DNA of 34,480 nt from Anaerolineae bacterium (lineage in GTDB: Bacteria > Chloroflexota > Anaerolineae > CG2-30-64-16): NCBI GenBank assembly GCA_026645775.1, contig JAPKMS010000026.1, positions 1 to 34,480 on the forward strand, read 5' to 3'. Shown here one piece after another: positions 5,769 to 15,050 of this stretch (position 1 is the first letter of the stretch; each line of letters begins with the position of its first letter). Under the pieces are notes generated by a model that saw only the letters and a list, made by a program, of their open reading frames with translations, searched no databases and was not told the DNA's origin. The position numbers and the translations under genes were made by a program.

Positions 5769-6873
5769 CTATTTGTCGGCGCCGACCTGGTCTTTGAGCC
5801 ACGCCTCGATGAAGAGATCGATTTCGCCGTCCAGCACCGCGTTGGTGTTGCCCGTTTCGACCTCGGTGCGCAGATCTTTGACCATCTGATAGGGTTGGAG
5901 CACGTAAGAGCGGATCTGGTTACCCCAGCCGGCTTCCACGTGTTTGCCCCGCAGGCGCGCTTGTTCGGCCTCGATCTTCTGCAGCTCGATGTCGTACAGC
6001 TTGCCGCGCAGCACCTTCATCGCCGATTCGCGGTTCTGCAACTGGCTCCGTTCGTTCTGGCAGGTGACGACGATCCCGGACGAGATGTGCGTCAGCCGCA
6101 CGGCGGTGGAGTTTTTCTGCATGTGCTGGCCGCCCGCGCCGCCGGAGCGGTAGACATCCATCTTGATGTCTTCGGGCTTGATATCGATTTCGATGTCTTC
6201 ATCGAGGACCGGCACGACTTCCACCAGTGCGAACGAGGTGTGCCGGCGCGCCGAGGCATCGAATGGGCTGATACGCACCAGCCGGTGGACGCCGCGCTCC
6301 GCCTTGAGGTAGCCGTAGGCCCAGGGGCCGGTGATCTCGATGGTGACGGTTTTGATGCCGGCTTCCTCGCCTTCGAGCTGGTCGGTGATGATAGCTTCGA
6401 AGTTGTGGCGTTCCGCCCAGCGCAGATAGAGACGTTGGAGCATCTGTGCCCAATCTTGGGCTTCGGTGCCGCCCACCCCCGCGTGCACCGACAGGATCGC
6501 ACCGCTGCGGTCGTATCGGCCGCCCATGGCCAATTGGAACTCCAGCCCTTCGTAGCGTTTGGTGAGTTGCTCAGTCTCCCGGCTGACCTCGGCCTGGATG
6601 TCTTCGTCCTCGGCCTCGGCCGCCATCTCCAGCAGCTCCAGCGCGTCGGCTACATCCTGTTGGAGCTTGTCCCAGGTGCCCACCTGCTCGCGCAAAGCCG
6701 ACAGCTCGCGCATCACCGTCTTGGCGGCCTGGGGATCGTTCCAGATATCGGGGCTAGCGGACTTTTCGTCTAGTTTTGCGATTTCAGCCTGTTTGCCTGG
6801 GACGTCAAAGACGCCTCCGCATGGCATCAATTTGCTCAGAGAGCAGCGCCAATTGGGACCGGATCTCTTCCAT
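5769..6873 (-). CDS. prfB: peptide chain release factor 2, made by +1 programmed frameshift
   Basis: RF2 recognises UAA and UGA stop codons and triggers peptide release on the ribosome. The frame-0 ORF starts at ATG 6871-6873 (GAGG nine nt upstream) and runs 22 codons to an in-frame TGA at 6805-6807. The remaining 345 residues are in the +1 frame, joined at CTT-TGA-C, giving 367 residues, close to E. coli RF2. The anticodon-like tripeptide SPF is at about 202-204 and the catalytic GGQ at about 247-249 (SGGAGGQHMQKN). The gene follows ftsY by 83 nt in the same direction. Annotating it from the long open frame alone would lose the true N-terminus (MEEIRSQLALLSEQIDAMRR). Confidence 0.96.
6805..6818 (-). 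promoter_or_regulatory. RF2 programmed +1 frameshift signal
   Basis: Read on the minus strand the site is GGAGG (6814-6818), three bases (CGT), then CTT-TGA-C with the stop at 6805-6807. This is the classic arrangement: an internal Shine-Dalgarno three bases before the CUU slippery codon, UGA in the A site and C after it. When RF2 is scarce, ribosomes pause at UGA and slip +1 to GAC, producing full-length RF2, so the factor controls its own synthesis. The mechanism is established for E. coli; here it is inferred from the intact elements. Confidence 0.94.
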
Positions 6874-11724: not shown

Positions 11725-12579
11725 TTATTCGGTGGTGGGGGCGGGGGTGAAGAAGCCGACCACAAGCGCTCCTGGCCCGGCGTGGGTGACGATCGCCGGC
11801 ACCAGGTCCATGATCAGCACATCGTCCGTGCCGAGCGCCTCTTTCAGCTCGGCAGCCAGCGCGGCCGCGTCATCCGGCGCGGAGGCGTGCATGACGGTCA
11901 GATGGGCATCGGCCCCGCGCGCTGATTCGGTAATGGCCAGCTCTTTGATGCGGGCCAAGGCGCGGCGCTTGGTCCGCTCTTTCTCAAATTGCTCGATGCG
12001 ACCATTCAGGAAGGTCAGGATCGGCTTGATTTGCAGAATGCCGCCGACCAGTGCCTGTGCCCCGCCGATGCGGCCGCCGCGCTGCAAGAATTCCAGCGTG
12101 TCCACCAAGAAGTAGATGCGTGCCCGAGCCATCATGGCGCGGACGCCTGCCTCAACCTCGTCGGCAGTGGCGCCGGCTTTGGCCCACTTATCCGCCTCCA
12201 GCACGATGGCGGCCAGGGGGCCGGCGATGGTGCGCGTGTCGATAATGCGGATATCCACGCCGGGGAAATCGCCGCGGGCGGTCTCTGCCGAGCGCATGGT
12301 GCCGCTTACGTCGGCCGAGGGGTGGATGCAGACGATGGACTCTCCGCCTTGGGAAAGCTCCTGGAACGCAGCGATGAAATCGCCGGGGTAAGGGGCCGCT
12401 GTTTTCGGCAGCTCCCGCCCGGCGCGCAGGCGAGCCATGAAGCCTGCATTGTCGATGTCGATGCCCTCGCGAAATGATTGCCCCCCGAAGTTGATGATCT
12501 GGGGGATCAGTGGAATGCCCAGGCGCCTTGCTAAATCCGGCGCCAGGCCACAGGTGGTGTCCGCCACAATGCGGGTCAT
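11725..12579 (-). CDS. DegV-family fatty-acid-binding protein (FakB-like)
   Basis: A 284-residue DegV protein. Members bind a fatty acid in a cleft between two domains and, as FakB, present it to the kinase FakA for phosphorylation. Typical sequence: the N-terminal MTRIVADTTCGLAPDLARR, then TAAPYPGDF (the TSQPSP-like segment), SADVSGTMRSAETAR (the SGTY/SGT ligand loop), IIDTRTIAGPLA, and FLVDTLEFLQRGGRIGGAQALVGGILQIKPIL. No fakA is visible here. The start is firm: ATG 12577-12579 with AAAGGAGG five nt upstream. It is the first gene of a pair with the GNAT-like gene and lies 77 nt downstream of the final stop codon of the interrupted glycosidase gene. Confidence 0.92.
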   Translation of the reverse strand: MTRIVADTTCGLAPDLARRLGIPLIPQIINFGGQSFREGIDIDNAGFMARLRAGRELPKTAAPYPGDFIAAFQELSQGGESIVCIHPSADVSGTMRSAETARGDFPGVDIRIIDTRTIAGPLAAIVLEADKWAKAGATADEVEAGVRAMMARARIYFLVDTLEFLQRGGRIGGAQALVGGILQIKPILTFLNGRIEQFEKERTKRRALARIKELAITESARGADAHLTVMHASAPDDAAALAAELKEALGTDDVLIMDLVPAIVTHAGPGALVVGFFTPAPTTE

Positions 12580-12607
12580 GGAGGCCTCCTTTGCGAATAA
12601 GTAAGAT

Positions 12608-12655
12608 AAAAACAGACCCGTGCGCAGGCGCTGGCCGATCGACCGGTGCCTGTTT
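12608..12655 (-). terminator. probable intrinsic terminator after the glycosidase gene
   Basis: On the minus strand AAACAG (12650-12655 read inverted) and CTGTTT (12610-12615) close a long hairpin, extended by ACC/GGT past a 2-nt bulge. The stem runs into TTTTT ending at 12608. It follows immediately after the TAA at 12657-12659, the stop codon that would end the glycosidase if its internal TGA were read through. This supports TAA, not TGA, as the ancestral gene end. Confidence 0.5.
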
Positions 12656-12656
12656 G

Positions 12657-12845
12657 TTACGAGCAGTCTCCCACGAGGAGATCCGGGTTCGGCAGATAGG
12701 TGCGCGCATCGACGCCGTGTGTCCAGAAGTTGGTGTTCGCGGATAGGCCGTCGACTTCCACCCAGAAGTGAAGCTTGCTGCCGGGATCGCGGGCCGGGCT
12801 CACATCGATGTCGTTGAAATCCCAGCGGCTGGCCGCGGCGCCTTG
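12657..12845 (-). pseudogene. in-frame 3' continuation of the glycosidase beyond a TGA
   Basis: After the TGA at 12846-12848 the same frame stays open for 62 codons to TAA 12657-12659. It encodes SRWDFNDIDVSPARDPGSKL... and NFWTHGVDARTYLPNPD. These align with the preceding module of the same protein (VWDFNDVDVSAARDARNKL... and NVWVHGADARTFMPDQY). The conserved second copy shows this was coding sequence recently or still is. The TGA (probably once CGA or TGG) removes the last half-module. Readthrough of TGA followed by C, a recent nonsense mutation, or a base-call error are all possible. Confidence 0.8.
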
Positions 12846-15050
12846 TCACCGTGGCGCACCGCGCGCCACCCGTTCGCCGGGATCGTTGTTCACCGCCCGC
12901 ACCAGCCAGATCGCCGGCTGCCAGGCGTCGGCGGTTTGTGCGACCAGCAGCCGCTGGCGCGTGCCGTGCGCAAACAGATCGGCGCTGAGGTTAGCCAGGT
13001 GGGCCTCGGACACGGCCGCATTGCCGTGGGGCCAGAGGATTTGGATGCGTGCGTCGATGGCCGCGGGCCAGGCCCCGGCCCGCACGAGCCCCTCGCTTTC
13101 GGGCTGATACTGGTCGGGCATGAACGTGCGCGCGTCGGCCCCGTGCACCCACACGTTGGATCGGCACGGGAACCCCGCGACGCGCACCGTGAAATAGAGT
13201 TTGTTGCGCGCATCGCGCGCGGCGCTGACGTCCACGTCATTGAAGTCCCACACGGGCACGCGCCGGCCGTTGAAATCTGCCAGCCGCGGCGCCCCCGTCG
13301 CGACCGGTTCGACCGGCTCGTTGTTGAGCGCCCGCCACAGCGTCACCGGATGGGCGAAGTCGCAGGGGACGGCCGCGCGGCTGTCGGGGAAGGTGAGATA
13401 GGCGGTCAGGTTGGCCAGGCGTGCTTCGGCCACGGGCGCGTCGTCGTGCGGCCACAAGATGGCGATCTTGGCATCGACGGACGGCAGGGCCAGGCGGATG
13501 CTGGCGCGCTGCCCCGGCGCAATCGCGAAGACCAGCACGCTGCCGGCCTGGGTGTGCGGCAGCGGTGCGCCATCCGCTTCGACCGTGGTGTCGCGCAGCT
13601 CGCGCAGGCCCAGAATTTGTCCCAAGTCCAGGGTCACCTCGCCGGCCGCGGTCGCCGATACGTGCAGTGCGCCGGGCTCCTGCCAATCGACGAACAACTG
13701 GGCCCAGCCCTGTCCCTGCCAGCGTGCGGCCGCGTCGCCGATTCGGCCGTTGCCGCTGCTGAAAAGCGCGTCGTCGGCGGTGTAGCGGTACGCGATGCTC
13801 CCGGCGGGGGTTGCCGTCACCTCCACGCGGCCGCGCGGGGCCCGGCCAGGCGCCAGGCGCGCGGCCAGCGCCGGCAACGCCACTGCGCTGGGTTTCGGCA
13901 GGCCGGCCGAGTCGAACAACCCGAAGCTGCGTTCCTTGGGGTTAGGCCCTGGCGGCAGGTCCCACAACATCCACTTGCCCGCACCGGCCAGGCCCAGCTC
14001 GTAGGCCCGCAGCCACCCGGCGCTTTCACAGATGGCCGCCTGCGCCGGCTCCAGCTCGCTGGTCGAGTAGCCGAACTCCGTCAGCAGCACCGGCTTGCCT
14101 GGAAACGCCGTGCGCAACCCCTGGGCGATGGTGAGCTGGTACTCCAACTGCCGGGGCGAGGCATCGCGCGGGTAGCGGTTAATAGAGATCATGTCGAGGC
14201 GGTCGTTGGCGGGCAGCGCGGCCAGCAGCGGATCGCTCCAGCCGATTGTCACCAGCCGGCCAGGATCCGCGGCGCGCACGGCGTTGAGTTGGGGCGCGAT
14301 CCAGGCGGCCGCGGCGGCGTTCAGCTTGTCCAGGAAGGCTTGCCACGGGACCGCCTCGGGTGAGCGCACAAAGTCGACCGTGCTGACACGATAGCTGCGG
14401 GCGCTGATCCAGTCGCTGATCGCCTTCAACAGCGCATCCAGGGTCTCGCTGGCGTTGGCGAAGCGGACCGCCTCGTCGTCAGACATCCAGCCCGCGGCAT
14501 TACCGTCGCCGCGCGCCCAGGCGAGCGCGGCTTCCGGCGTACGCTGCGGCGGGTAGAGCGCGGTCAGATCGGGCGCAAAGAGCGGGTTCGCGCTCGGAAA
14601 GCGCATCTGGGTCAGATGGTAGAAACGGGGTTCGTTCTTCAGGTCGTAGCCGAGCAGCGCCGGATGGCCGGCGTAGCGTGCCGCGATCAGGCCGGCGTGG
14701 GCGCCCAGCGTTTGGACGTAGGTCAGACTGTAATCGGCGAGGGTCAACAGCAACTGGACGCCGGCGCGTTCGGCTGCGGCGACCAGCGCATCGAGCTTGG
14801 TCCAGTCGTTTTTTGGGAATTCGTTCTGCAAAGGGGCCGCGACGAAGGTGCGGATGGTGTTCGCCCCAGCCTGCCGCGCCAGCCGGAAGTCGGCCTCGAT
14901 GAGCGCGGCATCGAACTTGCCGGCCTGGAACTGCGCCCAGGCCCGGTCGCTGTGGCCGACGTAGTTCACGATAACCGCGAAGAACGGTCGGCCGTCGGCG
15001 GTGTACAACCGGCGCGCATCCGGGGCAACGGAAACGTAATTTTGCGCCAT
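12846..15050 (-). CDS. clan GH-A glycoside hydrolase, cut short by an in-frame TGA
   Basis: 734 residues up to the TGA, about 797 with the tail. A (beta/alpha)8 domain of the GH5/cellulase-like type fills about 10-400. The predicted acid/base is E140 (YDLKNEP) and the nucleophile E325 (VLLTEFGYS). It should hydrolyse a beta-glycosidic bond in an oligo- or polysaccharide. Two C-terminal beta-rich modules of about 110 residues follow, each with ILWPH...A...LANL and WDFNDVDV...NVWVHGADART signatures. No signal peptide is visible (MAQNYVSVAPDARRL), which is odd for such a domain layout. ATG at 15048-15050 is used; AAAGGAG is 10 nt upstream, and a TTG two codons earlier is an alternative. Divergent from ppk2. 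Confidence 0.82.
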   Translation of the reverse strand: MAQNYVSVAPDARRLYTADGRPFFAVIVNYVGHSDRAWAQFQAGKFDAALIEADFRLARQAGANTIRTFVAAPLQNEFPKNDWTKLDALVAAAERAGVQLLLTLADYSLTYVQTLGAHAGLIAARYAGHPALLGYDLKNEPRFYHLTQMRFPSANPLFAPDLTALYPPQRTPEAALAWARGDGNAAGWMSDDEAVRFANASETLDALLKAISDWISARSYRVSTVDFVRSPEAVPWQAFLDKLNAAAAAWIAPQLNAVRAADPGRLVTIGWSDPLLAALPANDRLDMISINRYPRDASPRQLEYQLTIAQGLRTAFPGKPVLLTEFGYSTSELEPAQAAICESAGWLRAYELGLAGAGKWMLWDLPPGPNPKERSFGLFDSAGLPKPSAVALPALAARLAPGRAPRGRVEVTATPAGSIAYRYTADDALFSSGNGRIGDAAARWQGQGWAQLFVDWQEPGALHVSATAAGEVTLDLGQILGLRELRDTTVEADGAPLPHTQAGSVLVFAIAPGQRASIRLALPSVDAKIAILWPHDDAPVAEARLANLTAYLTFPDSRAAVPCDFAHPVTLWRALNNEPVEPVATGAPRLADFNGRRVPVWDFNDVDVSAARDARNKLYFTVRVAGFPCRSNVWVHGADARTFMPDQYQPESEGLVRAGAWPAAIDARIQILWPHGNAAVSEAHLANLSADLFAHGTRQRLLVAQTADAWQPAIWLVRAVNNDPGERVARGAPR

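Follow-up and report, generated by a model that had tools for sequence, protein, structure and literature searches.

The window, meaning the whole 34,480-nucleotide stretch of DNA that was analysed, comes from the bin of an uncultured Chloroflexota bacterium, and the named related loci likewise come from Chloroflexota metagenome-assembled genomes (MAGs). On its minus strand lies a glycoside hydrolase gene with a TGA in its frame, followed downstream by a DegV family gene (11725..12579) that starts at ATG 12579 with AAGGAGG upstream.

The glycoside hydrolase gene, its in-frame TGA, and the tail

As truncated, the glycoside hydrolase open reading frame (12846..15050, minus strand) begins at ATG 15050, which is preceded by AAAGGAG, and ends at TGA 12848-12846 after 734 amino acids. 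The initial annotation of this stretch had described an in-frame TGA with an open continuation of 62 codons, and frame reading together with orthologue alignment bore this out: the TGA (12846..12848, minus strand) is codon 735 in frame with ATG 15050, the next codon is CAA, and 62 sense codons lead to the ancestral TAA at 12659-12657. This tail (12657..12845, minus strand, including the TAA) includes the peptide LHFWVEVDGLSANTNFWTHGVDAR; it encodes the C-terminal part of the second of two modules and ends in PNPDLLVGDCS. The openness of 62 codons by itself is little evidence in a GC-rich window, in which stop-to-stop gaps of at least 62 codons make up 24% of all gaps and ORFs taken as genes can have as many as 342 open codons after them; the tail is regarded as real coding sequence because it is homologous to the C termini of orthologues, not because it is open. 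A plausible terminator had also been claimed after the TAA, and this was no better than chance (3 found vs. 2.7 expected; z = −0.09).

The catalytic domain spans approximately residues 1–430 and is of the GH-A type, with the motifs NEP (in LKNEPRF) and TEFG read from the sequence; both motifs are typical of GH-A clan enzymes. In profile searches the product fell just above two cut-offs, both marginally: PF00150 (Cellulase/GH5) at 24.5 bits against 23.5, and PF02449 (GH42) at 21.6 bits against 21. The gene product is thus predicted, on marginal matches, to be a GH5-like or GH-A clan glycoside hydrolase, placed at the level of the clan rather than in an exact CAZy family, and it differs from the clan in bearing tandem C-terminal modules without a Pfam match above cut-off. 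No obvious signal peptide was found in the ORF. After the catalytic part, the truncated ORF encodes a linker region, then module 1 and the beginning of module 2.

The two module copies, of about 130 residues each, start after approximately residue 520. Module 1 (13086..13487, minus strand; residues 522–655) is an intact beta-sandwich, and module 2 (12660..13085, minus strand; residues 656–797), delimited with the help of a structural model, is cut by the TGA; the boundaries of both are approximate. A second copy of a WDFND...HG.DART motif had been proposed for the tail, and it is present, with the first copy reading VWDFNDVDV...WVHGADART and the second RWDFNDIDV...WTHGVDART, although the residue before HG is V or T rather than N or T as proposed. 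The module pair matched no Pfam family above cut-off, and it recurs in many Chloroflexota proteins, where it is usually C-terminal and in some cases preceded by TPTPT-like linkers, so that the tandem beta-sandwich pair would apparently constitute an undescribed domain family. Its pattern in the window (12660-13487, minus strand) and at the related loci L002-L055 can be written AKIEIVWPHG...ANITAYLF...VWDFNDVDVSAARDP.NKLYF.V.VDG..T..NVW.HGADART. A PDB fold search returned generic immunoglobulin-like sandwiches only (TM ~0.2) and no usable assignment.

The two modules were modelled with 28 sequences, an amino acid being put in place of the TGA, resulting in a confident model (pLDDT 89.9, pTM 0.87). 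In this model the TGA falls within strand 211–215, the first strand of a hairpin, and the four strands of module 2 beyond it (218–228, 238–245, 249–252, and 255–258) are lost. The stop leaves the catalytic domain and module 1 intact. The cut lies inside a folding unit and not at a domain border, where, going by the model, a designed short form would sooner be expected to end.

Orthologues and constraint on the tail

The initial annotation had suggested that orthologues be aligned across the site, and four full-length orthologues without a stop were found to have sense codons there and a homologous tail: G006 (69% identical; ACC, T), G004 (62%; GTG, V), G005 (61%; CGC, R), and G072 (47%; V). 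The tail can be aligned over its whole length with the C termini of all four, and also with about two dozen further module-pair homologues up to a common Cys near the C terminus. Because the four orthologues share both a sense codon in the TGA column and the same tail, the long form is ancestral. The column itself is unconserved, with R, T, V, E, A, P, D, S, and Q found there among 27 module homologues. The flanks of the TGA can be aligned with G006 and G004 free of frameshifts, and since both lie in the same frame, one substitution is enough. Compensating frameshifts around the TGA were considered and rejected, since the neighbouring frame is plausible when taken alone, yet it is the annotated frame that the orthologues match on either side of the TGA, and no frameshift is therefore needed.

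A search of 396 genomes of the class, with matches in 68, found no relative with a stop at this site. By this comparison, made above the strain level, the stop is private to the lineage of the source genome (G000), the only genome found in its genus. Among the same 396 genomes the sole other homologue with an internal stop is that of G039, in which the stop lies elsewhere in the sequence. This locus (L022; G039:C1:1911494-1912291), in a single-contig genome, combines an internal stop in module 2 with frame breaks and ambiguous bases there, and looks like a sequencing error or decay. Homologues in G025 and G058 were at first flagged as having an internal TGA, which proved to be the result of alignments that overran the gene's own final stop; a longer query shows none.

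The tail is 66–76% identical to its orthologues, compared with 61–69% for the sequence before the TGA. The dN/dS estimate that had been proposed as a check gave values of 0.05–0.14 for the tail against the orthologues (Nei-Gojobori), with synonymous sites near saturation. Changes private to the window were also counted at sites identical among the three closest orthologues, which is a rough test on few sites: codon positions 1 and 2 of the tail carried such changes at 6 of 93 sites, against 8.4 expected under unchanged constraint. Had the tail been unconstrained for 20% of the branch, 11.7 would be expected (P = 0.044, and P ≤ 0.044 for any share of at least 20%), and had it been unconstrained for 50% of the branch, 16.6 (P = 0.001). 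A tail released from constraint for more than about 20% of the branch would thus fit these counts poorly, and the private-change test excludes an old pseudogene. An undecayed tail implies that the stop is very young, or that the base is wrong, or that the tail is still translated, and it is equally expected from a young mutation as from readthrough.

Decoding of UGA in the source genome

The initial annotation had held that UGA is not generally reassigned, which stands for ordinary genes and overlooks the selenocysteine decoding of this genome. That other genes in the window end in TGA was verified for 10 of the 18 ORFs checked. The RF2 gene prfB (5769..6873, minus strand) was confirmed to have the classical CTTTGAC +1 frameshift site, present as CGG AGG CGT CTT TGA C with its TGA at 6807-6805. 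A Shine-Dalgarno-like GGAGG stands just upstream of the CTTTGAC (6780-6873, minus strand). A reassignment of UGA to an amino acid, general or partial, has nothing in its favour beyond the glycosidase gene itself and was rejected on the TGA-ending ORFs and on the presence of RF2 with its UGA-dependent frameshift switch; the tRNA-Trp has a CCA anticodon, and no TCA-anticodon tRNA was among those recovered in a bin whose tRNA set is incomplete. We regard it as next to inconceivable.

Selenocysteine is inserted at UGA elsewhere in the genome, which encodes selA (579 bits; C307:7721-9052, L117/L118) and selB (334 bits; C311:2010-3977, L109) and has in-frame UGA codons in the catalytic site of selD (SSCAG-U-ASKL; C270:2017-2952, L121) and in the formate dehydrogenase alpha subunit gene fdhA (HCARL-U-HSP; C334:14933-17080, L124). 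No tRNA-Sec was found over the cut-off in this fragmented bin, from which many other tRNAs are missing too (those for Ile, Phe, Tyr, and Asp are not among the ones recovered). The glycosidase gene resembles selD and fdhA in that a homologous tail follows an in-frame UGA, but differs from them in having neither a bSECIS element nor a Cys or Sec column. Following a published bSECIS model (PMC13188914), a hairpin with an apical G 16–37 nt after the UGA was sought; both positive controls had one, that of FdhA with a GGUCU loop 18 nt after the UGA and that of SelD also passing, and no qualifying hairpin followed the glycosidase UGA. This failure is informative because the criterion is loose, with 107 of 223 background TGAs passing. 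Cys was found at the column in 0 of 27 homologues, and the position is a variable one in a non-catalytic module rather than a redox site. Selenocysteine at the glycosidase UGA was rejected on the absent bSECIS and the lack of Cys, and we consider it extremely improbable despite the machinery at hand.

The initial annotation had also called the TGA-C context leaky. The site does read UGA-C, a context in which bacterial termination has been documented as inefficient (PMC5289835); in Escherichia coli reporters UGA is the most error-prone stop, with leaky readthrough inserting mostly Trp and then Cys (PMC11126739). Trp and Cys were not seen in the homologues at the TGA column. Among the ten TGA-ending ORFs of the window, none has C at +4. 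The site shares the tetranucleotide UGAC with the autoregulatory site of prfB (PMC5289835), which the host uses for +1 frameshifting, but it lacks a slippery codon, an upstream Shine-Dalgarno-like stimulator, and conservation, and its continuation is in frame 0. No stable RNA structure was found downstream of the TGA (z about +1). Of the features by which readthrough may be recognised, the site accordingly has the leaky context and has neither a stop conserved in relatives with an in-frame extension nor a stimulatory structure. These observations allow for some readthrough at the UGA-C; selection for readthrough draws no support from conservation, structure, or residue.

Origin and consequences of the stop

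The initial annotation had offered functional readthrough or, failing that, a nonsense mutation of very recent date or a wrong base. The second of these alternatives is supported by the sense codons in orthologues, the homologous tail, the private TGA, and the lack of decay, and the support found for readthrough was of a generic kind. On the alignments, the TGA probably arose as a recent nonsense substitution, private to this lineage, in a glycoside hydrolase gene of the chromosome. The ancestral product had about 797 amino acids, comprising the catalytic domain and two tandem beta-sandwich modules, and a point substitution would then have created a stop that ends translation at residue 734, inside module 2, and removes four strands. 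The main product would keep the catalytic domain and module 1, with module 2 incomplete and probably unfolded, and, as with leaky stops in general, a small share of ribosomes may read through the UGA-C.

That the base is real is a judgement against an artefact of base calling, assembly, or strain mixture, under which the gene would be intact and the metagenome-assembled contig would carry at the TGA an error of the consensus or a minority allele. Such an artefact would agree with the fragmentation of the bin (478 contigs, 4.49% contamination), with a TGA unique to the source genome, and with a tail that shows no relaxation at all; however, the change is a single clean substitution in surroundings free of frameshifts and other anomalies, no internal stop occurs in the large genes searched (prfB, selA, and selB), and the bin holds no alternative copy carrying a sense codon. 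We consider an artefact unlikely, if a credible enough source of such a codon.

We likewise suggest that the substitution arose recently rather than being tolerated by way of readthrough. Functional readthrough would mean that the UGA-C is selectively kept leaky and yields a minor full-length product with a complete module 2 beside the short form, for which the inefficiency of UGA-C (PMC5289835), the error-proneness of UGA in E. coli reporters (PMC11126739), the tail without visible relaxation, and the absence of C at +4 from the ten TGA-ending ORFs of the window could be cited. Yet no orthologue has a stop at the site, so that no conserved programme is apparent; no stable structure follows the TGA; the position is unconserved and the cut interrupts a folding domain instead of falling at a border between two; the usual inserts Trp and Cys (PMC11126739) are absent from the homologues; and a preserved tail is as much to be expected of a young mutation. 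Functional readthrough accordingly appears improbable. More speculatively, a newly acquired UGA-C could act as a leaky switch that produces a major short and a minor full-length form, with the tail kept by selection, in which case a bacterial readthrough gene would have been caught early; we hold this to be a long shot.

A recent nonsense substitution would have many counterparts, in that in-frame stops in bacterial genes are widespread and mostly persist at the time scales of population polymorphism, with carbohydrate transport and metabolism among the more frequent functional categories (Belinky et al. 2021, PMC7918605). The glycosidase stop resembles those cases in being short-lived within a gene sequence that keeps dN/dS below 1, and it differs from them in being seen in one genome only and in lying near the 3′ end with the catalytic domain spared. 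Stops that leave a tail under constraint are frequent in bacteria on the time scales of populations (PMC7918605), so the glycosidase stop is an ordinary instance of the short-lived in-frame stops known from bacteria. It would gain importance only if strains of the species had the stop in common and still retained the tail, given that there are few documented cases of selected UGA readthrough in the chromosomal genes of bacteria. For annotation, the case indicates that in a selenocysteine-using genome an in-frame UGA should be tested for a bSECIS element and a Cys column, both negative here, before a pseudogene is called.

A GTG that overlaps the glycosidase TGA (GTGA) opens a 374-codon ORF in the frame of the downstream DegV gene (11725-12849, minus strand). 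The extra 90 codons before DegV look spurious, because the gene has its own ATG start behind the AAGGAGG, and the Pfam match sets in at residue 2 counted from that ATG.
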